A stretch of DNA of 64,000 bases from a virus, in the IMG/VR virus record IMGVR_UViG_3300010885_059224, positions 1 to 64,000 of that record; one strand, given 5' to 3'. The translations under genes and the position numbers were made by a program. Positions within the stretch are counted from its first letter, which is position 1; each line of letters opens with the position of its first letter. The notes beneath the pieces are model-generated. The model was not told the origin of the DNA, ran no database searches, and worked only from the letters and a program-made list of their open reading frames with translations. Shown here one piece after another: positions 22,633 to 46,478 of this stretch.

Positions 22633-25600
22633 ATGTCAGCTCTAGAATACTTAAGTAATAATGCTTTAAACAGCTACCCATTTAAAGATGGTAGGGAGGC
22701 TAATCCTGATCTTCCTATCCCAAACGACGCATTTCTTGATGCACTGTTTATAACCAGCAACCACAGCATAAAGAGGGTATACATATCTAGAATAACGCAA
22801 GTTCAAGGAAATATAAGTATAGAATTATCTGAAGTAACATCTGGCGTCATTGGTACATTAGACTTTAAATTATCGGATGCAGTAAGTCATCTTAACAACC
22901 AAGATAAAAGTTTTATAGCTGGTTCTGGTACAGCTTGGGTTATAAAGCTGGTATTCGGTCCAGGGATATCATTTTTAAAAGGGAACAGAGCACCTGTAAC
23001 ATACACACCCCAGCAAACAGAGCTACTATCTTCTATATTACAAAACTATCCAAGAACAGTAACATCGCTTAAATTTCAATCTTACACACCGCAAGGAGCT
23101 ATATCAACTCAGGAGTTAACCGAAGTTCACAAGTACATAGCTGGAGACATTGTGCATATCGCAAATGGGGCGAATAATGAATTTAGTACAGGCACCGGAT
23201 CCGTGATGTACATAGACATTGACAGGGGTAAAGGAAAAGGGTTATGGGATCCTTGCAGCACAGGCCAGATAAAAAATATTTATTCAGTTAACGAGATAAT
23301 ACCAAGTAGCGTTGGAGAATTTTTTATTAACGCTGACGATTGTTATTCCGTAAAATTACTGTCGGCCAGTGAGCTTTCAGACCTAGGCAGCTCCACAAGC
23401 TCACCGACACATATAAAAACAGCAACAAACTATGCAAACTTTTCAACGCCCATAACACCAAAAGCAATACTTTCCGGTCTTATGGACTACGTTGGTCATT
23501 CTGCGGTCGCACAAAACTCAGTTAATGTAAGTTTCACAAGCCCAGAAATTGGGGATTTGATATCTGAAAACCCAGAAAACTACAGAATTATATTTAATGG
23601 TGGGTACATAGCAGAAAAAATAACAGGAGCTACAGGGGCGTATACACCAGGAGCAGTGTGGGCTATAACTGGTGTTTGGCCAGCCAACACCACTGGGGCT
23701 CCATTTTCAATCCAGCAAAAAAAAGTTTCCTTTAACGCCATAAGCGCGGCAGCCGGCGGCCATGGCTTTATGATGAGTAATAGCTGCTCTGCAAAATGCC
23801 CCCCAGAGAATATAAATGCCTTTGCAAAATATATGAACAGGGTAACAGATGGCGCCGCTGAACTTTATAAGATAGTTAATAACAATAGTCAAACATACGG
23901 TACCGGCAATATTGACGGAGCCCCTTTCTCTTCTGATAGCTTTAATGGAGTTATAAATAGCGCCTATTTTAAAGCGTATAATTTTTGTCAGGAGCCTGGG
24001 AGCTCAAGACCAATATCTTGCAACGCCAGCTTTAAAAAATATTTTCACGAGGGTAGAGATATAAAAATCACAAAAGGAAGGGATAATTATATATTTCAAA
24101 TAAAAAAAGTTTTATCGTCTACACGCATTATAATATCCCCCGCGATTCAAACTCCCGATATTTTTTCAGCGTTATGTGATATATTAAACACGCCTGGCAC
24201 ATATTATTCTTTTTCTGTGCTAGACTATGGTATAAAAAACTCATTAAACGACGCTATTATTAATAAGAATAATAAAGTTGCTACACAAAACACACCTTAT
24301 ATAGATTTGAATTACGGTACTGTGGAGGCGTACAACACAGCACGAGATTACGGAACTTTCATTACCTCCGTAATTGTTATCTATAACCCATCTGCAACTT
24401 CAATAACTTACAGTATCAGCGCAACGGTATTAGGCTTAGCTTCATTGGTTGGAACATCTGTAAAAATAAAAACAAGCAAGGGAGATATAAGTTATGGTGC
24501 CACCACAGGTACAATAGATTGCCAAGATTATAATATTTATGAATCAATATATTTTATACCTTGCTCTCCTTCTGAGCATAATTTAAGCGCTGGTGGGGTA
24601 CAATTCGAGGTGAATAATACAACACATACACCTCACGTACCAATACCCTATTACATTAACGGAGCCATAACAGCCCCATCAATTCCTCACTCCGAAAGCA
24701 GTACTGAATTAATTGCTGCCTTATGTGTATCTACCACGGTAGTCGAAGATTCTATTACCGCGACTCAAGGTAAAGCATTTGAATATAATATAACGCTTCT
24801 CGGCAACGCAACTGATGTTAAAGTTGCCGGTGATTTACCCAGCTGGATAACCCTCAGTCACACCACTACCCCTGGAGATCCTGTGATAAATAACTGGAAA
24901 TTATCTGCAACAAATCCTGACGGGATATCCAACAAAACGTATAATATTACTATATCTGGCTCCGGAGATACTCCAGTAGCTGCGATTAGTTTACATTTAC
25001 AATATATAGCAAAACCAGTGCTAAGTTACCCAGTGGACGATACCGCCGCTGGAAGGGCTCCATTTTCTTACGTTTTACATATATACCCCCCCGACGGTGG
25101 ACCCAAAATAAAAACTACCAGGCAATTCACTCAGGGTGCGCCATTAATGGCAATTCTTGCATCTAACAGCCCAACCAGTTACTCGATAACAGGATCTATC
25201 CCCAATGGACTAACTGTTTCAGGTCGCGGGCTGATAGGTAAAATTAGTCTTCCGGAGTCCACAACTTATCCTGCGGTTTATAATCTTACACTTTCCGCCA
25301 CCAATTCTGCAGGTACTTCCAAGACGGCTACAGTTGCATTAACTATACATGACGTAGGTATAACTACTCCTTGGGCGATAACAAATACATTATTTAATTA
25401 TTCTATTATAACCGCGGGTGACGTTATATCCCAGACGCTGATTTCAATAATTCCCGACTGGTTAACTTTTGATGGTGCAATCAATCTTTCTAGTACTTCT
25501 AAGCCAAAAGCTAATTTTTCTGGAACATATACTGGAGCGGACACAACAACTATTTCCGCGGTTGTCAGGCAAAATTTAATAAACGGAGGTTATAGACTTA

Positions 25601-28371
25601 TTGAATATAATATACCTGCCAAAGCATTGCCGTATATTACTTACCCAGTTACAGGCAGCACAATCGATGTATATTCTCCAGATTTCCAAGATTATTACGG
25701 TAATACCACTACGTTTACAACAACCAACCCATTTTTAATCGTTTTAGCTAAAAATAATCCAACAAATTTTAATGCTGTGGGACTGCCTACAGGACTCACA
25801 ATCAACCGCGATGGAAAAATAATAGGAAAGATTACATCTGCACCAGCAGGCATATACGTTGTCACAATCTATGCTATCAACGCACTAGGCAACTCTCAAA
25901 GTATAACAATAAACATAAAACTCTCTACCGCGGTAGAAGAAATACCTGCATTCCAGGGTGACTCGTTTTGTTATAAATTTCCAGCTTTGAATAGCTTAAT
26001 TAATGTTGAAGGCTGCTCATTCACAGTAACCGGCCGAGATGCAGCTAACCCAGCTCCAACTTGGCTTGGAGTAAGCAAAAGTATAAATTCTTCTTGTCAC
26101 CTTTATTACTCTGGGGGAGATCCTGGCTTATCTACTGGTACAACAAGTTTAATCTTATTAACGATAAACAATAACGATGTAATATCTCGGCGTTATTTTA
26201 ATGTAACCTACTCTCCTATACCTAACATCTTCGGCCCTCAAAGATCTAATATTTGGCAGGTGGCGTATACGAACTACAAAAATAATGTTTATACCACCGA
26301 ATTACCGTTAGCTAAAATAGAAGCCAGTCATTCTCCTACAAGTTATTCTGCTACGGGTTTGCCGTCTAGTTTGAGTATAGACTCAGCCGGTAATATTGTG
26401 GGCAGTTTAACCGTGCCGCCTGGTAACTACTATTTTACCATTTATGCAACCAATGAAGCTGGAAGAAGTGAAGGTGTTCAGTTCCAACTAAATGTTAGTT
26501 CTTCTCCCATTGAATATACAATATACAATAAAATAGAATTCAGTCTTTATGCGTTTGGACCAGCTAATTCTTCATATTCATATTCAGGAACGCTTCCACC
26601 AGGGCTAACTTTTTACCCAACAACTCGTCCAATATACGGAGATTTGATAGTGGGTTATGTAAATTTAACTAGCGATGCTTCATACCCAATAGACATAACT
26701 GTTCACAATGGAACCAGCAGCCTAAAATATTCATTTCTTTTAATTTATGATTCTAATGCATTAACTATTACTAATAGCGGAACGGTATATCCAATAGTAA
26801 TACCTGACTACGGTTTACGGAAATATACCAATAGCTCGCCATTACTCACCATAACCACAAATGTTCCAGCTACGTACTTTTACGGTAGTGGATTACCGCC
26901 AAGCCTAACTATTGATGCATCTACTGGGTGCATCATTGGTGGGCCTGTTACTACTGAGGGGTATTATACCGCCACGATCACGGCAAAAAATTCGAAATAT
27001 ACAGCCACTGCAGAATATTTTTTCAATGTGGAGAATAACGTAACCCGTTACCAGGCTGTGCACGGTGAGCCTGTATGTATACCGATAACAGCAGGTGTAT
27101 ACAACTATATTCTAAGTGCTGGTATTACCTCCGGATATTTACCTGGGGGACTCTCACTAAACGGACAGTCAGGTGTAGATTGTGGAATTTATGGTTATGT
27201 TTCACAGGGCGCCCCCTCAGGAACATCTGTAGTGACTATACGTAATAATTATATTGGTGGCTCCTTTAACCAAAATATTGCTATAAGTTACGTAGGAATA
27301 CCTACAATAACAAGTATTGAAGTTGGCTCTACCCCAACCACAAGCACTAGTAGAGTTAACAGTTTTAAATTTAAGCCGTCTAGATATAATTCATACGGAC
27401 CATACACTAAAGAAAACCCACTACTCACCGTAGTGGCCACAAATTCTCCAACGTCATTCATATATTCAGGATTACCAAGCAATTTAAGCATAGACAACTA
27501 CGGAAACGTTGTAGGCATCCCATCCATTGTTGAGACAGACGCGTTGTATTACGTATATGTTGTTGCGGTAAACTCCGTTGGTCGTTCGGGAGAGTATTTA
27601 TTTACGATCGATTTAACAAAAACAAGCCCAAGTATAAACTGGCAATCTCCAGGAGTATTGCTCTTTAGAGATACCGCGGAAAATGGAGATATATTCACCG
27701 CAACAGAAGGACATACCCCGCCGTATAGTGGAACTTTTGTATACTCAATTGCTCCTACAGATAGGTTTGATATAGGCTCGCAAAATTTAAGTATCACTTT
27801 TAATCCAACCAACAGAGCAGACTATTCCTCTCTAAGCAAAACGTTCTTCTATAACGTATCACCCGCCGGGTTTAGAATAGTGTGGAATCCTGTCATATCT
27901 ACGCTAACAAACACGGAATCTATAGACAGCAGGATTCTGAATGCTTATGTTGTTTTAAATACGGACCCATCGTATCACCCGCAGGGTAGCTTTGAGTATA
28001 CTATCTATGCATCTAGTGGAGCTACTGGCGTTTCGGCAAGTAATTATTCTCTCGATATGGGTAGCCCGGACATTCCAATTGATACAGTGGAGGGAGTGGT
28101 TATACGTCTTAAATTCACTCCAAACATATCCACACGGTGGGAGCAGCTCCCGCAGTATGACTACAGAAATGTATTTTTCAAGAAGGTGAACCAGCCATCA
28201 GACTGGACTCCAACACCTACACCTGAGCCTACACCTGAGCCTACACCTGAGCCTACACCTGAGCCTACCCCTGAACCTACACCTGAACCTACACCTGAAC
28301 CTGAACCTACACCTGAACCTACACCTGAACCTGAACCTACACCAGATCCTGATCCTGGTATGGGCGAATAG
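22633..28371 (+). CDS. Giant YP-module adhesin with Ig-like repeats
   Basis: 1912 residues. N-terminal YP module (LSNNALNSYPFKDGRE). Residues ~282-362 share a domain with the 30641 paralogue. From residue ~715 onward come tandem Ig-like units of the He_PIG type (e.g. GLPSSLSIDSAGNIVG, then YATNEAGRS), with five clear copies starting near DNA 25168, 25755, 26331, 26863 and 27444. The C-terminus is a run of TPEP repeats, a stalk or flexible linker. Probably a long tail fibre that reaches and binds the host surface. No signal peptide, as expected for a virion protein. Confidence 0.65.
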   Translation: MSALEYLSNNALNSYPFKDGREANPDLPIPNDAFLDALFITSNHSIKRVYISRITQVQGNISIELSEVTSGVIGTLDFKLSDAVSHLNNQDKSFIAGSGTAWVIKLVFGPGISFLKGNRAPVTYTPQQTELLSSILQNYPRTVTSLKFQSYTPQGAISTQELTEVHKYIAGDIVHIANGANNEFSTGTGSVMYIDIDRGKGKGLWDPCSTGQIKNIYSVNEIIPSSVGEFFINADDCYSVKLLSASELSDLGSSTSSPTHIKTATNYANFSTPITPKAILSGLMDYVGHSAVAQNSVNVSFTSPEIGDLISENPENYRIIFNGGYIAEKITGATGAYTPGAVWAITGVWPANTTGAPFSIQQKKVSFNAISAAAGGHGFMMSNSCSAKCPPENINAFAKYMNRVTDGAAELYKIVNNNSQTYGTGNIDGAPFSSDSFNGVINSAYFKAYNFCQEPGSSRPISCNASFKKYFHEGRDIKITKGRDNYIFQIKKVLSSTRIIISPAIQTPDIFSALCDILNTPGTYYSFSVLDYGIKNSLNDAIINKNNKVATQNTPYIDLNYGTVEAYNTARDYGTFITSVIVIYNPSATSITYSISATVLGLASLVGTSVKIKTSKGDISYGATTGTIDCQDYNIYESIYFIPCSPSEHNLSAGGVQFEVNNTTHTPHVPIPYYINGAITAPSIPHSESSTELIAALCVSTTVVEDSITATQGKAFEYNITLLGNATDVKVAGDLPSWITLSHTTTPGDPVINNWKLSATNPDGISNKTYNITISGSGDTPVAAISLHLQYIAKPVLSYPVDDTAAGRAPFSYVLHIYPPDGGPKIKTTRQFTQGAPLMAILASNSPTSYSITGSIPNGLTVSGRGLIGKISLPESTTYPAVYNLTLSATNSAGTSKTATVALTIHDVGITTPWAITNTLFNYSIITAGDVISQTLISIIPDWLTFDGAINLSSTSKPKANFSGTYTGADTTTISAVVRQNLINGGYRLIEYNIPAKALPYITYPVTGSTIDVYSPDFQDYYGNTTTFTTTNPFLIVLAKNNPTNFNAVGLPTGLTINRDGKIIGKITSAPAGIYVVTIYAINALGNSQSITINIKLSTAVEEIPAFQGDSFCYKFPALNSLINVEGCSFTVTGRDAANPAPTWLGVSKSINSSCHLYYSGGDPGLSTGTTSLILLTINNNDVISRRYFNVTYSPIPNIFGPQRSNIWQVAYTNYKNNVYTTELPLAKIEASHSPTSYSATGLPSSLSIDSAGNIVGSLTVPPGNYYFTIYATNEAGRSEGVQFQLNVSSSPIEYTIYNKIEFSLYAFGPANSSYSYSGTLPPGLTFYPTTRPIYGDLIVGYVNLTSDASYPIDITVHNGTSSLKYSFLLIYDSNALTITNSGTVYPIVIPDYGLRKYTNSSPLLTITTNVPATYFYGSGLPPSLTIDASTGCIIGGPVTTEGYYTATITAKNSKYTATAEYFFNVENNVTRYQAVHGEPVCIPITAGVYNYILSAGITSGYLPGGLSLNGQSGVDCGIYGYVSQGAPSGTSVVTIRNNYIGGSFNQNIAISYVGIPTITSIEVGSTPTTSTSRVNSFKFKPSRYNSYGPYTKENPLLTVVATNSPTSFIYSGLPSNLSIDNYGNVVGIPSIVETDALYYVYVVAVNSVGRSGEYLFTIDLTKTSPSINWQSPGVLLFRDTAENGDIFTATEGHTPPYSGTFVYSIAPTDRFDIGSQNLSITFNPTNRADYSSLSKTFFYNVSPAGFRIVWNPVISTLTNTESIDSRILNAYVVLNTDPSYHPQGSFEYTIYASSGATGVSASNYSLDMGSPDIPIDTVEGVVIRLKFTPNISTRWEQLPQYDYRNVFFKKVNQPSDWTPTPTPEPTPEPTPEPTPEPTPEPTPEPTPEPEPTPEPTPEPEPTPDPDPGMGE
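25168..27610 (+). repeat. Five tandem Ig-like coding units
   Basis: Within the 1912-residue adhesin, the core S/N-P-T-x-[YF] ... G-LP-x-x-L-x-I-x-x-x-G-x-I-x-G recurs at about 25168, 25755, 26331, 26863 and 27444, a spacing of 532-587 nt (about 180-195 residues). The units have diverged at DNA level, so the duplication is old. Confidence 0.75.
28213..28350 (+). repeat. 12-nt tandem repeat encoding TPEP
   Basis: About ten copies or variants of ACACCTGAGCCT / ACACCTGAACCT with some 6-nt GAACCT insertions, coding for TPEPTPEP...EPTPDPDPG. Near-identical copies indicate recent expansion, and copy number is probably variable. The last residues before the stop are GMGE. Confidence 0.92.
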
Positions 28372-33466: not shown

Positions 33467-33495
33467 CCCCCCCATTTATAATTATGGTTTTTTGC
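33454..33495 (+). terminator. Possible weak terminator
   Basis: AAATGGG (33454-33460) pairs with CCCATTT (33471-33477), with the stop codon of the 33179 gene in the loop; the T-run follows only after ATAATTATGG. Pairing is clear, terminator function is uncertain because of the gap before the T-run. Confidence 0.35.
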
Positions 33496-33497
33496 GG

Positions 33498-33503
33498 TAT
33501 AAT
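33498..33503 (+). promoter_or_regulatory. TATAAT box before a structured RNA region
   Basis: TATAAT with no gene start near it; transcription would begin near 33510 and enter the hairpin-rich stretch 33517-33775. Supports a non-coding transcript. Confidence 0.4.
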
Positions 33504-33509
33504 AAAATG

Positions 33510-33775
33510 TAACCACGATTTGCTGGGCTCTATTAATTTAGGGTATAGCGGCAAATCAATTGGTTGACAACCCCACACACCCAACAACGTGCATCTTCTT
33601 CACAGAAGATAGCATGTTACATTTAGCTTTTTGGGGTGCACAGATCCTCATATTTTGAAACACTGCCTGAATAGGGCGCAGGGAGAACCTGCGACTACAC
33701 ATACCCGGTTATCTGTTTTCATAGGGACTATGTGGGTTGCAACACAGGCAGTGTTTCTAACTCGTCTATGCGAGT
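33510..33775 (+). ncRNA. Unrecognised structured RNA A
   Basis: Gene-free on the plus strand. Three strong helices: GATTTGC (33517-33523) with GCAAATC (33551-33557); a 14-bp hairpin, AACGTGC+ATCTTCT (33586-33599) with AGAAGAT+GCATGTT (33604-33618), one bulged A; and AAACACTGCCTG (33658-33669) with CAGGCAGTGTTT (33745-33756), 12 bp perfect, enclosing a CGCAGG/CCTGCG hairpin and a CATAG/CTATG hairpin. ACTCG/CGAGT follows. No known RNA family recognised. Expression and boundaries are inferred. Confidence 0.5.
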
Positions 33776-33787
33776 ATAAATAGCCAA

Positions 33788-34063
33788 CTAGGCATAGAGC
33801 GTCCCGGCTAAAATAGCTGGGGGATTGGGCGCAAGAATGGAACGTATCGTAATTAAGTTACGCTCCCCTAATAGGTCAATATGGTATAACCCATATTTGG
33901 TGACAACCTCATAGGTCTCTGCAAAGACAATGAACAAATCACCCGCCTCGCTAATGACAATTGCAGAAGTCTTGGCAGGAACGCGCCCCGAATTTAAATA
34001 AGCTTGTGAGTAGAGCGCCCGGAGATCTGGCGACACGGTTAGTAGATTGATTTTTAACCACAC
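33788..34063 (-). CDS. Possible small minus-strand protein
   Basis: 91 codons with a GTG start (MWLKINLLTVSPDL), balanced composition and a plausible hydrophobic pattern (SAIVISEAGDLFIVFAETY). It would be a lone minus-strand gene between an RNA region and a plus-strand gene. No recognised domain and no ATG, so it could also be a chance frame. Nothing else is seen in 34064-34164 except a small palindrome near 34090. Confidence 0.35.
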   Translation of the reverse strand: MWLKINLLTVSPDLRALYSQAYLNSGRVPAKTSAIVISEAGDLFIVFAETYEVVTKYGLYHIDLLGERNLITIRSILAPNPPAILAGTLYA

Positions 34064-34164
34064 GCTGGTGGTATTTAATCTGCTAAATGGTGATGATCAC
34101 ACAAACTTATTTTTAACTGTCCCCTCCCCTAAACCAAAACACCAACCATAACCATAAAACAAAC

Positions 34165-34947
34165 ATGGCTAAAAACGTAGAAGTAATAGATTGGGCTTCA
34201 CCTGCCCGTAAGGCAAAAAGAGACAATGATCTTTATATCAATAGGGATCTCAAGAAGCTCATGACATATCGTGAGTATAGAAATCAACCAGTTAATGTTT
34301 TATCATTACCTGCAGAGAAGTGGCTGTGGGAGAGCCAGTTGATTCAGAACTTCCCTAATAATAAGATTAACTTTCTAGGCACAGAGTCAAATCCTGTAGT
34401 TTATAAGAAAGCGCTAGAAGTAGCTACCACGATTAATGGTAAAAACGTAAAAACAGAACTACTACCCAACAAATGGGAAGAAGTGGTGGTTAGAGATTTT
34501 AACTCTAGGATGTTTAATCCCACAGATGCTGGTTTTGACATCATTTACGGGGACTTCATGGGTACATTTAATAGAGGCATTATAGGCTATATAGAAGAAC
34601 TATTGAGTGATACCGAAATGTTAAAACCTCTTGGTAATATTATTTTTACATTCATGCTTGCTCGTGGATGTAAATATACCAGAGAGGAAACAATAAAGAT
34701 CGGGGAGAAATCCGCTTATAGACATCAGCTCTATGTTGATGACGATAAGATGTGGCTACGGAACACCAAAAACAACACCTCAAATCTGGTACATACATAT
34801 GCTCTGGGCATTATGGAAACAGTTGTGTTAATCGCCAAGAAGTTTGGTAAGGTATTAATACCCGCTAAACCTCACGTTTATTATAGCCCAGGAGCTAACG
34901 GAGCAGAACTTCCAGAAGGCAGCTTTTGCTTTACTAGGCTTAAATAA
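34165..34947 (+). CDS. Possible methyltransferase-like protein
   Basis: 260 residues, mixed alpha/beta. VNVLSLPAEKWLWE, then INFLGTESNP, and FDIIYGDFMGTF about 70 residues later give the strand-helix-strand spacing of a Rossmann methyltransferase (motif I, acidic end of strand 2, D-x-x-x-x-D motif IV-like). The glycine-rich loop is replaced by LSLPAEKW, so cofactor binding is uncertain. Sits immediately before the tmRNA. Alternative: unrelated alpha/beta phage protein. Confidence 0.45.
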   Translation: MAKNVEVIDWASPARKAKRDNDLYINRDLKKLMTYREYRNQPVNVLSLPAEKWLWESQLIQNFPNNKINFLGTESNPVVYKKALEVATTINGKNVKTELLPNKWEEVVVRDFNSRMFNPTDAGFDIIYGDFMGTFNRGIIGYIEELLSDTEMLKPLGNIIFTFMLARGCKYTREETIKIGEKSAYRHQLYVDDDKMWLRNTKNNTSNLVHTYALGIMETVVLIAKKFGKVLIPAKPHVYYSPGANGAELPEGSFCFTRLK

Positions 34948-34969: not shown

Positions 34970-35403
34970 GGGGGCGTTACTGGCACTCGACTCCAGAAAT
35001 AGATAACACACCTACATGCGGAGGATCTCAGTTGGCCTCCTTAATCATCTGGGAAAAAACTAAAAGCAGCCTCTAACGAGACGCTTGCTCCTAGCCTCGC
35101 CGAGGCAGACGCCATTCTTGCAAAGTTTGGCTATGCTGACGCTGAGCTCCTCGCTGCCTAACCGCAGCGGAGAAATCCGCTAGTTGCAATAACGGTACAA
35201 GGACGCCCGATGCCATGTACTTCAAACGGGTACCTCGATTATATTGTGAGGGTATAATTCATATATGCACCAATTGCATTAAGTTGGGAATCTGAACTAC
35301 GCATTTACACATTATTGTAGTTCTTATATTAAATGTGAAAAGCATGTACACGGTTGTTTGAAATATCTGGAACACAGGGGTTCGAATCCCCTCGCCTCCA
35401 CCA
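34970..35403 (+). ncRNA. ssrA: tmRNA (one-piece, phage-encoded)
   Basis: Rescues stalled ribosomes by acting as tRNA and mRNA. Acceptor GGGGGCG (34970-34976) pairs with CGCCTCC (35393-35399) with the G3-U70 wobble that directs alanylation; CCA is encoded (35401-35403). T arm AGGGG-TTCGAAT-CCCCT precedes it. Helix P2: TACATGC (35013-35019) with GCATGTA (35342-35348). Pseudoknot PK1: GGAGG (35020-35024)/CCTCC (35036-35040) and CTCAG (35027-35031)/CTGGG (35049-35053). Resume codon GCA at 35066, 12 nt after PK1, gives a 31-codon tag ending YADAELLAA with TAA at 35159-35161. Confidence 0.93.
35066..35161 (+). other. tmRNA tag reading frame
   Basis: Starts AASNETLAPS and ends YADAELLAA, stop TAA. 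The end resembles cyanobacterial tags as I recall them (I-V-x-F...D-A-L-V-A-A), and the final LAA is the type of end read by ClpXP. In-frame Ala codons at 35099, 35105 and 35111 are alternative resume points; distance to PK1 and the A-rich lead-in favour 35066. Confidence 0.7.
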
Positions 35404-36300
35404 ATTTGAATGTCGAACCCCGCTCCCCTCTTGTCCAATACCATGGACTGAGGGGAGCAACATTTTATCCGAGAAATCCCATTGCGATAAGCTGGCAGCA
35501 CATTAGAGCTGATCCAGTGTGTCAGAAGAACTCGTAGACCGAAGACGTTTTGGGCGAATAGGTCAATTAATTTTCCTCCTAGGGTGAGGTCGCTCCCCTT
35601 GCTCATAGCTTGACGAATACTGCACGACTACAGTTATCGTTAAAGCGAAAGAGACCGCAGTTCCCTGCACGTGTAATCCCTCTATTATATCAGGCATGAG
35701 TAATAAGAAACATGACTAGTCATCATGGGGGAGAGAAGCTAGCTGCGGGTGGAGGAACACTTTTTATCCCAGTAGTTGTATATAAAACCCACACTGAGAA
35801 GCACGTCAGCCGCCGTGTGTATACGTGGAAATCCTGAAGATAAACGATACATCCTCTCATAGGCATACAGGTGATGAATGTGAGAACAAAGGAAATCAAC
35901 CATCTAGGAGCTACAACTACTGGGAAAATTTGGTAATGTATTTTATCGGTTAAATCATTAATGTTACAGCCGTCTGTGGCCGCGAGATATCATATCTTTC
36001 CCGCCCAAAAAAATAACAGATAGAATAATTCAAAGGGGTCCAAACCTGTAGATTTATTCTAGCACTATAAAGTAACAGCCATTAACCATTTTCTAAATCT
36101 GACACACTCAGGCTTGGGAGCACTGGTCCGGCAGTGACTAACACAATCCGGAAAATTTTATTTGCCACATAACCTATATAGGTCTATTGTGATTCTAGCT
36201 CAGGACAACCAAAAACCCTCTGGTATTAGGCGTATGCTCCAATGGCACGTGGAGTATTTTAAGTCCTGTCCTGAGCTCTAATTTTTAGCTATCAACATAA
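35404..36300 (+). ncRNA. Gene-free, structure-rich region C
   Basis: About 900 nt without a convincing gene. Pairings: GCTCCCCTC (35422-35430)/GAGGGGAGC (35450-35458) with inner GTCC/GGAC; palindrome ATGACTAGTCAT (35712-35723); CACGT/ACGTG (35802-35806/35823-35827); TAGAATAA (36021-36028)/TTATTCTA (36054-36061); CACTG/CAGTG near 36120 whose loop TCCGG can pair with CCGGA near 36150 (pseudoknot); palindrome ACCTATATAGGT (36172-36183); AGCTCAGGACA/TGTCCTGAGCT (36197-36207/36267-36277). A TATAAA at 35781-35786 could start a ~490-nt RNA ending at the last hairpin. Reminiscent of large ornate phage RNAs near tRNAs such as GOLLD, but not matched. Confidence 0.45.
36197..36287 (+). terminator. Long hairpin with T-rich tail
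   Basis: 11-bp perfect stem AGCTCAGGACA/TGTCCTGAGCT enclosing a second helix ATGCTCC/GGAGTAT, followed by CTAATTTTTA. Could terminate the region C transcript or form its 3' domain. It ends ~20 nt before the next gene. Confidence 0.5.
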
Positions 36301-36882: not shown

Positions 36883-36889
36883 AAAATTT

Positions 36890-37028
36890 GATCTGACGGT
36901 ATGGAAAAGAACATACATTTGCTACGCGGTAAGTTGTCCGCAGCAACCCTGTGCTTCTGGAAATTCCGGGGGCGAGCTTGCAAGCCGAGGGAAACCAAAA
37001 CAGTGATGGAGTAGTGACCATCCAGATC
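36890..37028 (+). ncRNA. Unrecognised structured RNA D
   Basis: 139 nt between genes. Closing helix GATCTG (36890-36895)/CAGATC (37023-37028), continued by ATGG (36901-36904)/CCAT (37018-37021). Inside, TTGCT+GCGG (36919-36929) pairs with CCGC+AGCAA (36938-36946). Further GC-rich pairs are possible around CTGG-AAATT-CCGG. The TATAAATA box sits 7 nt upstream. No known family recognised. Confidence 0.55.
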
Positions 37029-37050
37029 ATTAAAATTAACACATAAAATT

Positions 37051-37891: not shown

Positions 37892-37897
37892 TATGAT

Positions 37898-38095
37898 TTT
37901 TGACGGCAGCATCATAAATACGGCCGGACCCTTCCTTCCTTTAGCACCCCTCACAAAGGGTATTGTTAAACAGGTAGACTGGCGTGGTCGGGTAGAAGAG
38001 CTCTCCTGTTTGGCACACTATAATAGTGCTGAGTAACTTCTTTAACCATGGTAACCCGGATGCTGAAAAGGTTCTGCAGAGCCGTACCGTCAAAA
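37898..38095 (+). ncRNA. Unrecognised structured RNA E before tRNA cluster
   Basis: 198 nt closed by TTTTGACGG (37898-37906)/CCGTCAAAA (38087-38095), continued without a break on the 5' side by CAGCATC (37907-37913)/GATGCTG (38059-38065); the 3' side carries an extra hairpin GGTTC-TGCA-GAGCC between them, making a three-way junction. Inside are ACCC/GGGT, AAACAGG/CCTGTTT and CACTA-TAA-TAGTG hairpins. It ends 4 nt before tRNA-Asn, so it may be co-transcribed and processed. No known family recognised. Confidence 0.65.
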
Positions 38096-38099
38096 CTAC

Positions 38100-38683: not shown

Positions 38684-38688
38684 ATTTT

Positions 38689-38766
38689 GCTAGATCAGGG
38701 GACAAGGGGCTACATGCCCCGTTCTGTAAGCTGTATACAAGCGACAAGGACTTACCCTGATCTGGC
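38689..38766 (+). ncRNA. Unrecognised structured RNA F after tRNA cluster
   Basis: 78 nt, about tRNA size, closed by a 12-bp helix GCTAGATCAGGG (38689-38700)/CCCTGATCTGGC (38755-38766) with one U-G pair. Inside are a GGGGC-TACAT-GCCCC hairpin and a GTAAG/CTTAC arm, giving a three-way junction. It lacks tRNA T and anticodon arms. Starts 5 nt after tRNA-Tyr, so it is probably part of the same primary transcript. Confidence 0.6.
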
Positions 38767-42242: not shown

Positions 42243-42285
42243 ACCTCCCACGCCTCTCACTGAAGCGCACCAGGGAGGTTTTTTA
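42243..42285 (+). terminator. Rho-independent terminator
   Basis: ACCTCCC (42243-42249)/GGGAGGT (42273-42279) followed by TTTTTTATT. The loop is 23 nt. Confidence 0.85.
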
Positions 42286-43656: not shown

Positions 43657-44778
43657 ATGAAAAAAGCACACACAGACCTATTCGACCGTCCGTCTGGATT
43701 AGGTGACACTAGAGTAGAATACTTATATAATAAAGAAAACGGAACATTACCATCTAAGGTATACGTTGGAGATCCGCTTGATTTAGAAAAGACTAGCCAG
43801 TTTATATCTGATAATTTTGATCCATTAAATTCAGAATTTGCGTTTAAAGGGGGGAAACTATCAGAATCAGGATTCTGGCTAGGTAAAGGAGAATATCTGG
43901 ATATTATTCTTGAGGTTAGCGATTACGGAAGATCAAGAGAATATCTGCCGTACATTAGCGAAGAAAGTTATAATCTTAATAAACCTAAACAAGTAAAAAC
44001 CTGCTCTGTTCAGGCTTGTGGTGGCTCCCCTGAAAAACTAAAAAAGTTAGGTGAGGAGTTGTCTAAGTTCAAACATGAAGCAGAAGCAAAGATATACCTA
44101 TTAGTAAGCGAACATGGGGATACAGATTTACGGCCACTAGATGTGCCTGTAATAGACACTAACCTTGATTTGAATTACGGTACTGAGTTTAAAGAAGTAC
44201 ATGATAGTGTTATAGACTCATTAAAGAATAAATCCTCTGGTTTATACCTGTTTTATGGGGATCCAGGCACAGGTAAATCCTCGTATATCAAACATCTGCT
44301 ATCAACAGTAAAAAATAGAAAGATTGTTTATATCCCTATTAGCCTTATTGATAGCCTGACATCGCCAAACTTCCTGCCGCTGCTCATGAGTAATAGGAAC
44401 ATGATTCTTGTTATAGAAGACGCAGAAAAGGCACTATTATCCCGGGAAGAAGATAGAGGAAACTCATCACTGGTATCAACCATACTTAATCTTACGGATA
44501 GCTTTATAAGCAGTACCTTGAATGTAAGTATTATTGCTACATTCAATACCAAAAAGGAAAATCTTGATAAGGCCTTGTTAAGAAAAGGCAGGTTGAAAGT
44601 CAGTCATGAGTTCAAGAAATTATCGGTAGAAGATAGTCAGAAATTAATAGACTCTCTAGGTATACAACATACTGCAACAGAGAGTATGTCTATTGCTGAC
44701 ATCTATTATTTAGACGAAGATAATCGTCACAAAGAAGATAAAGAAGAAGATAGAGTTATTGGCTTTGGTAAGGCTTAA
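43657..44778 (+). CDS. AAA ATPase
   Basis: 373 residues. Walker A GDPGTGKSS near residue 201, Walker B LVIEDAEK near 250, sensor IATFNTKKENL and arginine-type LRKGRL near 307: a classical AAA module of the BCS1/proteasome-like kind. The N-terminal ~180 residues are unique and may bind the target. Such ATPases are common in large phages but their target is unknown. The stop overlaps the convergent terminase stop by 4 nt. Confidence 0.85.
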   Translation: MKKAHTDLFDRPSGLGDTRVEYLYNKENGTLPSKVYVGDPLDLEKTSQFISDNFDPLNSEFAFKGGKLSESGFWLGKGEYLDIILEVSDYGRSREYLPYISEESYNLNKPKQVKTCSVQACGGSPEKLKKLGEELSKFKHEAEAKIYLLVSEHGDTDLRPLDVPVIDTNLDLNYGTEFKEVHDSVIDSLKNKSSGLYLFYGDPGTGKSSYIKHLLSTVKNRKIVYIPISLIDSLTSPNFLPLLMSNRNMILVIEDAEKALLSREEDRGNSSLVSTILNLTDSFISSTLNVSIIATFNTKKENLDKALLRKGRLKVSHEFKKLSVEDSQKLIDSLGIQHTATESMSIADIYYLDEDNRHKEDKEEDRVIGFGKA

Positions 44779-46478
44779 ATAACATCTCTTGCACTACTAC
44801 TTGCGCCCTGGAGACTAATATCTCCAGCGGCCATGTAGGCGGCGCAAACAGCAAACACAAGACTGTGCATTGCATCATCAGGCTGGTTAGGGTTGTGGTT
44901 ATAGAACATTTCCTGACCGTACATACCATCCTTTACTTCTACATAAACATTTAATAAGTCCTGCATATAGTCGGACACATCCTCCCAATTAGGGAACAAT
45001 ATTTTACCTGCCTTTATTTGGCGTATAACTAATGAAATAACATCAGATCTATGTAGCACCCAGCGGTTTTGCCTCCAATCGTAATCTCCCATATCAAAAT
45101 ACTGAATAACTTTACTTCTCCTATATGTTGCTAATTGCGAACGTGTAGGGCTTGTTAATTCACACAGTTTAATTCCTCTGATAGGGTCAGGACCGGAGTC
45201 AGCCACACAAAAGGCATTATAATCATTAGCTAACTCTGAGATGTTTCTAATATGCCCTTCATGATCAAATCCATTGAATATCTTTACATAGAAAACCTCA
45301 AACACTCCATCGTTTCTCATGGCTCCTGCGGTGCATATAGTTCTGCTTTGAACCATAGAAACACCCCAATCCACTCCAACCGTGTATATCTTATACATCG
45401 GCCGGTTCTTTTCATGAATAAGCTTTTGACCATTACTATCCAACATCTTACCTAACACACAAACACGACGAAGTTCTTCTTCTGTGATGGGTTTTGTACC
45501 CATATCAAAAGTAAGCCCAAACACCTCGTTCATTATCTTTTTATGATCGTACTTACCACTAGTACATTTTTCATAAATTTCTTTCCACTCTTTTTCAGTT
45601 TCATTAAAGAATGGCAGTATAGGCTGGGCTAGATGATAACCAGTCATCAGGAAGTTAGTAGGATTTCCTGCCGCCCATTCACCATCTCTTGCATTAATAA
45701 GTTTAGAACACTTAGAACAACTCAAACCGTGCTCCAAAATCATTTTCATTGGGTCATTACCCTCTGTGAGACTATTCCAATGACCACATCCACAGCGCAT
45801 CATCCACTCAAGCTGATTCGTTGTTTTCCATAAACTATGAATAGTATTCGTACTATCCAAAGGAGTACCTGCAAAGATCTCTCTTTTGTAAGGGCTCAAT
45901 GCCATAGTTTCCTGGATAATAGGAATCTGGTCATACATCATGTCTTGCACCTCATCATAAACAATACAATCAACCGCAGGTCCACGGACTCGCGTAGCAT
46001 CATCTTTAACATAACGAAACAAGATACTGCTTCTGGTATCGCCCATAATTTTTTCAAACACATCATTCTTATCCCAACCTTTCACCAACATATTCTTAAC
46101 CTTAGGGCTATCAAACCTGGGTGGAAGGTAATTACTAGAGAAATACTTAACAGTTAATTCCTGAGGGCCAATATAGAGCATCTTGTAGTAGTTCCATCTC
46201 AACATATTCAAGCACACAAAATTACTCAAAAGTGTACTCTTTAAAGTTTTACGACTACACTTAAGGAGCAGTTTCTGTGGCATGTGGTCATACACATGTT
46301 TAAGCATCGGGAAATCAGTTAAATCTTGAAGCCTCCCCTCATTATCGAACAAATAGTTCTCGACAAAATGAGAGGGCGGAAGTACCGAAAACATCAGCTG
46401 TCGAGCGCGAAAAACAGCATCCTTGGTACCAACCTGGAAAAGTTTTTCTATAGTATCTTTGACATCAGAATGGGACAT
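44775..46478 (-). CDS. Terminase large subunit
   Basis: 567 residues; DNA-packaging motor and headful/cos nuclease. Walker B CIVYDEVQDM at residues 171-180. The Walker A place holds KCSRKTLKST (74-83), which keeps K-S/T but not the usual G-K. A zinc-ribbon-like pair, CGCG and CSKC, with G-x-W after it, resembles the insertion of the lambda GpA family. The nuclease has VGVDWG, ADSGPDP and PDDAMHSL acidic positions. It is on the minus strand, away from other head genes; no small subunit seen nearby. Confidence 0.88.
   Translation of the reverse strand: MSHSDVKDTIEKLFQVGTKDAVFRARQLMFSVLPPSHFVENYLFDNEGRLQDLTDFPMLKHVYDHMPQKLLLKCSRKTLKSTLLSNFVCLNMLRWNYYKMLYIGPQELTVKYFSSNYLPPRFDSPKVKNMLVKGWDKNDVFEKIMGDTRSSILFRYVKDDATRVRGPAVDCIVYDEVQDMMYDQIPIIQETMALSPYKREIFAGTPLDSTNTIHSLWKTTNQLEWMMRCGCGHWNSLTEGNDPMKMILEHGLSCSKCSKLINARDGEWAAGNPTNFLMTGYHLAQPILPFFNETEKEWKEIYEKCTSGKYDHKKIMNEVFGLTFDMGTKPITEEELRRVCVLGKMLDSNGQKLIHEKNRPMYKIYTVGVDWGVSMVQSRTICTAGAMRNDGVFEVFYVKIFNGFDHEGHIRNISELANDYNAFCVADSGPDPIRGIKLCELTSPTRSQLATYRRSKVIQYFDMGDYDWRQNRWVLHRSDVISLVIRQIKAGKILFPNWEDVSDYMQDLLNVYVEVKDGMYGQEMFYNHNPNQPDDAMHSLVFAVCAAYMAAGDISLQGASSSARDVI

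Follow-up and report, generated by a model that had tools for sequence, protein, structure and literature searches.

A Clade of Uncultured Phages with a Complete tmRNA Gene and a Conserved Tag of About 30 Residues

Among the systems closest to the gene considered here are the bacterial one-piece tmRNAs of Rfam family RF00023, which have a tRNA-like domain with a G3-U70 pair, the pseudoknot PK1, a resume signal of the A86 type, and a tag frame that ends in ...LAA with its stop codon in hairpin H5. According to the A86 rule, the resume codon lies four bases after a conserved A that is preceded by U (PMC2481249). The encoded tags range from 8 to 35 residues (PMC8012679), 10 being the commonest length (PMC11915505), and it is established that the -LAA C-terminal end suits Clp-type proteases (PMC8012679). 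Some phages, about 2% of them, also carry a tmRNA (PMC9004378, PMC4131195), and one survey counted it in 402 of 18,146 phages (PMC9004378). As to why they do so, the published ideas go from the maintenance of translation to the degradation of host proteins.

The gene discussed in this article lies in a 64,000-nt stretch of DNA, hereafter the window, which makes up most of a 73.8-kb IMG/VR virus record. Genes for a terminase large subunit (44775-46478, minus strand), a DnaB-like helicase, a primase, and an SbcCD-like nuclease mark the window as part of a large tailed phage; the majority of the remaining large proteins gave no match to known families, and a search for relatives by way of the 1912-aa protein encoded at 22633-28371 returned none. 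The window resembles Bacillus phage G, mycobacteriophages such as Bxz1, and Melnitz-type marine phages, whose genomes are likewise large and include a complete ssrA. However, the tag of phage G has 13 residues, as opposed to 31 in the window, and the Melnitz tmRNA is a two-piece molecule (PMC9004378), whereas that of the window is one-piece. The window tmRNA has all the traits listed above for the bacterial one-piece molecules, from which it differs in its 31-residue tag with a conserved body (against about 10 residues), in being phage-borne, and in that no SmpB gene was found beside it. Neither the tag nor the tmRNA was matched in GenBank phages, the tblastn searches with the tag, a short alanine-rich peptide query used without a positive control, having given nothing convincing. 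A phage tmRNA is per se already known; what is new is a phage clade with a conserved tag of about 30 residues, whose body is, on codon comparison, under selection.

ARAGORN calls the tmRNA at 34970-35403 on the plus strand, with the tag AASNETLAPSLAEADAILAKFGYADAELLAA, and RF00023 aligns to the same interval over its full length (model positions 1-374) with 76.8 bits and an E-value of 4.4e-28, against a curated cut-off of 47 bits. A first-pass annotation had placed here, on this strand, a complete tmRNA with tRNA-like elements, PK1, G3-U70, and a tag of up to 31 residues ending in LLAA, and had proposed a covariance-model search as a check; that search, the ARAGORN call, the resume signal, and an alignment of 13 sequences bear it out on each of these points.

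The relatives were assembled by protein searches, the last of them with a DnaB profile, which yielded a clade of 20 viral contigs from uncultured phages. RF00023 finds a tmRNA in 14 of these records, and in 12 of the 13 that are at least 90 kb long; an insertion in the T-loop, discussed later, keeps two of the 14 under the curated cut-off. The fold was assessed on an alignment of the 13 distinct clade tmRNAs, with pairing counted per cell. The acceptor stem, whose 5' strand GGGGGCG (34970-34976) contains G3 and whose 3' strand CGCCUCC contains U70 and is followed by ACCA (35393-35403), has all of its 91 cells paired, four of its pairs being compensatory and G3-U70 invariant in all 13 sequences; the CCA 3' end is encoded in the gene. 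The T-arm, AGGGG-UUCGAAU-CCCCU, spans 35376-35392, and its loop is uninterrupted in the window, making this an intron-free allele. At the end of helix P2 that adjoins the tRNA-like domain, CCAGA (34993-34997) pairs with UCUGG (35366-35370), and 60 of 65 cells are paired, all five pairs being compensatory. Upstream of the tag frame lies PK1 (35020-35053; GGAGG/CCUCC and CUCAG/CUGGG), in stem b of which all 65 cells are paired and four of the five pairs are compensatory; H5 (CGCUGC/GCAGCG, 35152-35169), with the stop codon in its loop, is paired in 44 of 52. Counts are lower for P2 proximal (26 of 78) and PK1 stem a (37 of 65) in the same alignment, which was used unrealigned and probably slides at these places, and PK2-PK4 are weakly aligned by the Rfam model. 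Directly upstream of the gene is TATAAAAATTTG, a motif in weak excess (27 matches, 19 expected); a T4-type late promoter, TATAAATA, was also considered and is no more frequent than expected by chance.

Regarding the reading frame, the frame-setting stretch UAAAA (35061-35065) places the A86 equivalent at the A of position 35062, as judged from the relatives and the published rule (PMC2481249), and the resume codon GCA follows at 35066 within UAAAAGCA, at the required distance of four bases from an A that has a U before it, a signal that is conserved in the relatives. The frame then runs for 31 codons plus TAA (35066-35161) and ends in the hydrophobic ...AELLAA. Of the two outcomes that the first-pass annotation had named as overturning its reading, a tmRNA model that fails to score did not occur, and conservation of both the resume signal and the frame rules out the other, an ordinary short tag read from another resume codon. 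All 13 distinct clade tags, the window included, have 30-33 residues, which shows that the long tag is no misreading of the frame; examples are ANSNEMLAPSLAEADAILAKYGYADSELLAA (G002), ANTNIVDFAPSVEEADAILAAFGYADADALLAA (G004), ANSNEFAPSVAEADAILASFGYQDAEVLLAA (G223), AESFDYAPSVAEADAFLEATGFVGAELLAA (G219), and ANDNSYAMTVAEADALLNSFEFEAAEALAA (G005). In three records (G212, G220, G223) ARAGORN missed or miscalled the gene and the tag was read from the resume signal, and in G214 the resume codon is apparently GUC. The head of the tag varies among clade members; the last ~24 residues form a shared body, APS[VL]AEADAIL..FG[YF].DAE.LAA in the 13-tag alignment and APSLAEADAILAKFGYADAELLAA in the window (35087-35158), and every tag has a hydrophobic end in ...LAA or MAA. 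A profile of the tag found it in all 14 phage records searched, with the tmRNA as the sole match in each.

From the APS motif on, pairs of sequences differ on average by 0.25 at codon positions 1 and 2 and by 0.59 at position 3, a third-position bias with p = 5e-5 by permutation of positions, and pN/pS is 0.37, with synonymous differences nearly saturated. Moreover, the tags change in length by whole codons, in frame. It follows from this pattern of divergence and length change that the tag is translated and that selection acts on it as a peptide, with the strongest constraint over the last ~24 residues, and on such codon comparisons the 31-codon frame is under purifying selection. It could be held that ribosome release alone matters to the phage, the length of the tag being tolerated drift and its body keeping ordinary degron or solubility properties; tag identity is indeed dispensable for some tmRNA functions, one of them the propagation of phage in E. 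coli (PMC2481249), and tags span a wide range of lengths, from 8 to 35 residues (PMC8012679). We consider this unlikely in view of purifying selection that extends over the entire body, in a clade whose synonymous sites are close to saturation, and of length changes that occur in frame only.

As to structure, the tag is predicted to be helical at residues 11-20 and, after a turn, to form a second, short helix at residues 26-30, so that the body probably forms a helix-turn-helix arrangement; the mean pLDDT of 72.5 and pTM of 0.34 give this model modest confidence. Searches of the body against Pfam, PDB sequences, and PDB folds gave no convincing match. Such a body also invites the proposal that the tag is not mainly a degron, and that its functional helical part marks proteins for stabilisation, for sequestration, or for binding to a phage receptor. 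The conservation of the body does exceed the needs of a C-terminal -LAA degron, and most natural tags, with a mode of 10 residues (PMC11915505), lack a body of this kind. Nevertheless, the degron-like ...LAA or MAA is kept at the C-terminus in 13 of 13 tags, and no candidate for a phage receptor was found, leaving this proposal with a low probability in our estimate.

The tag had also been described at first as unusually long, which holds in so far as 31 residues is far above the commonest length of 10; given the published range of 8-35 residues (PMC8012679), it is near the top of what is known and not beyond it. For comparison, IMG/VR was searched with a DNA pattern that describes the 3' domain of tmRNA, followed by ARAGORN, which gave 30 distinct tags on viral contigs, a sample limited by the pattern, by the frames that ARAGORN called, and by host DNA that the contigs may include. 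Fourteen of these tags have 22-27 residues and the others 9-18. Three of them (L037, L062, L118), of 26 residues and the form ...VAEG[DE]AILAS[IL]F...AIAA, share VAE.[DE]AILAS with the body of the window clade (E 5e-5 to 9e-4 in a test set of 25 sequences) and have the same third-position bias, with 22 differences against 6 and 8, but end in ..AIAA, unlike the LAA or MAA of the clade; apart from one weak match in L062, these contigs have no further similarity to the window proteins. Six others (L025, L030, L040, and L093; L090 and L112) have tags of 22-27 residues and of an acidic, helical kind, ESLFAELEGSELELA and MDFEGLMAFVGGELEIAA, respectively, unlike the window body. Taken with the 13-residue tag of phage G, the 22-27-residue tags hint that long tags recur among phages, and are not universal. 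We found no discussion of long tags in phage tmRNAs in the literature covered by our search, outside which most subscription papers fell.

The suggested likeness of the tag's final portion to cyanobacterial tags does not hold. The 41 cyanobacterial tags compared are all 15-17 residues long, nearly all of the ANNIVPFARK..VAA type, and lack the body; they score no better than noise against the phage tag profile, which had no match at E 0.001 in 390 cyanobacterial genomes in a search run without a cyanobacterial positive control. A cyanobacterial origin of this final portion is rejected on these comparisons. Of two fainter resemblances, one is in the head of the tag, which in two relatives (ANTNIVDFA and VNNIDFA) recalls the cyanobacterial ANNIVPFA. 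The other is in the tRNA-Ala of the phage, which is of cyanobacterial type: its exact sequence had no match in genomes, and a relaxed pattern with six positions left open found cyanobacteria only, among the 80 matches listed from GTDB. The cyanophage markers psbA and NblA were absent from the phage records; the host is perhaps a cyanobacterium.

These comparisons also bear on whether the gene could be a decayed or host-derived passenger, with the long frame a misread ordinary short tag. The one point in its favor is the Rfam score, 76.8 bits as compared with up to 144.9 for cyanobacterial tmRNAs. Against this are the E-value of 4e-28, the covariation, the conserved frame, the presence of the gene across the clade, and a similar tag in 0 of 390 cyanobacterial genomes; codon-level conservation in the relatives refutes the idea, which we hold to be extremely improbable. 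A body that is selected across a phage clade and absent from the sampled cyanobacterial genomes suggests that the peptide itself, beyond ribosome release, matters to the phage.

The reading we favor, and regard as fairly probable, is that of a functional phage tmRNA which uses host factors to rescue ribosomes and adds a phage-specific degron tag with a selected body. SmpB and ClpP were not detected in the phage records by searches whose positive controls were matched, a miss being possible in records that may be incomplete; the tmRNA would therefore depend on the SmpB, alanyl-tRNA synthetase, and proteases of the host. Charging, tagging, and proteolysis, which we infer, would proceed as follows. 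Host alanyl-tRNA synthetase would charge the tmRNA with alanine, as its G3-U70 pair implies, and ribosomes that stall in the infected cell, on mRNA that has been cut or degraded, would be released by the phage tmRNA together with host SmpB. The stranded products would receive alanine and the 31-residue tag, with its variable tag-like head, selected body of ~24 residues, and LLAA end, and through the -LAA end the tagged chain would most likely be handed to host Clp-type proteases. Selection on the body implies some reader, which could be an adaptor or an unfoldase or else the protease. Most likely the body would either be recognised by an adaptor or AAA+ unfoldase, from host or phage, or serve as an engagement site that speeds degradation. 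The phage would thus keep ribosomes free and replace the host tag (~16 residues if the host is cyanobacterial) with a degron under its own control. Retagging for proteolysis and the sustaining of translation, both raised in the first-pass annotation, are reasonable proposals that have already been published for another phage tmRNA (PMC9004378).

A possible but rather doubtful extension of the favored reading is that the body is a dedicated, phage-specified helical mark, read by a particular adaptor or AAA+ unfoldase, and that long tags of this kind are recurrent and have been overlooked. If so, the phage and not the host would decide the fate of proteins stranded on ribosomes during infection. 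The selected body and the hint of recurrent long tags make the system worthy of follow-up, and the question of what phages gain from tmRNA becomes testable through a single peptide. As the tag differs in both sequence and length from those of the candidate host group, it would also be an easy mass-spectrometry mark of phage-driven trans-translation.

The T-loop insertion mentioned above is limited to two sister phages (G001 and G006), which are mostly 88-98% identical to the window over aligned pieces. Their tmRNA genes contain a 653-nt insert (9224-9876 in L128 and L129) that follows UUCGAU and ends in G before UCCCC; the equivalent point in the window, whose tmRNA lacks it, is between 35386 and 35387. 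Excision in silico rebuilds the 7-base T-loop, and the rules of a U at -1 and a terminal G are obeyed. The insert has an antisense LAGLIDADG open reading frame, YTAGLIDGEGTI (PF00961, E 6e-4, just below the cut-off), and a stretch, AAGGAAUAGUCC, resembling the S element of group I introns; it had no match to the Rfam group I model RF00028. Its position after U6 of the T-loop corresponds to site 7, the main known T-loop site of tmRNA group I introns, and its boundaries fit the rules for these (PMC11915505). A mobile group I intron is the probable identity of the insert. The sisters diverge from the window chiefly in the tmRNA body, where the ~400 bp that lead up to the insertion point have 3-14 differences per 100; elsewhere the figure is mostly 0-5 per 100, and the 500 bp downstream have almost none. 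This concentration suggests a replaced tract in the tmRNA body, of the kind left by co-conversion when an intron homes. Both the tag and the pairings survive the replacement, as in P2, where CCAGA/UCUGG of the window corresponds to CUUAC/GUAAG in the sisters.

Several other features of the window are recorded here. A classical AAA ATPase similar to BCS1 and proteasome ATPases is encoded at 43657-44775, and two viral contigs unrelated to each other (L035 and L045) have homologues of it in the vicinity of their tmRNA genes; to name this protein as reader of the tag would be a guess, and the tmRNAs that the homologues adjoin have short tags. Directly 3' of the tmRNA, ~900 nt (35404-36300) contain no likely gene, are 99% identical in the sister phages, and had no match in Rfam; part of this region (35648-36286) is ~73% identical to G002 with some compensatory changes, and the whole is perhaps a large structured RNA. 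By eye, start codons such as those at 34165, 36306, 36561, and 37051 have A-rich upstream sequences and no obvious Shine-Dalgarno motif. Three short conserved noncoding blocks (36884-37045, 37892-38099, and 38684-38766), unmatched in Rfam, each have a long closing helix, with a few compensatory changes among the 3-4 sequences compared, and the first is 85% identical in G002, above the identity of nearby genes. A borderline match to abiF RNA lies at 42244-42279 (37.3 bits, cut-off 37). Finally, the noncoding block at 33467-34164, upstream of 34165, contains a Pistol ribozyme (33760-33828, 61.5 bits) along with further conserved sequence.
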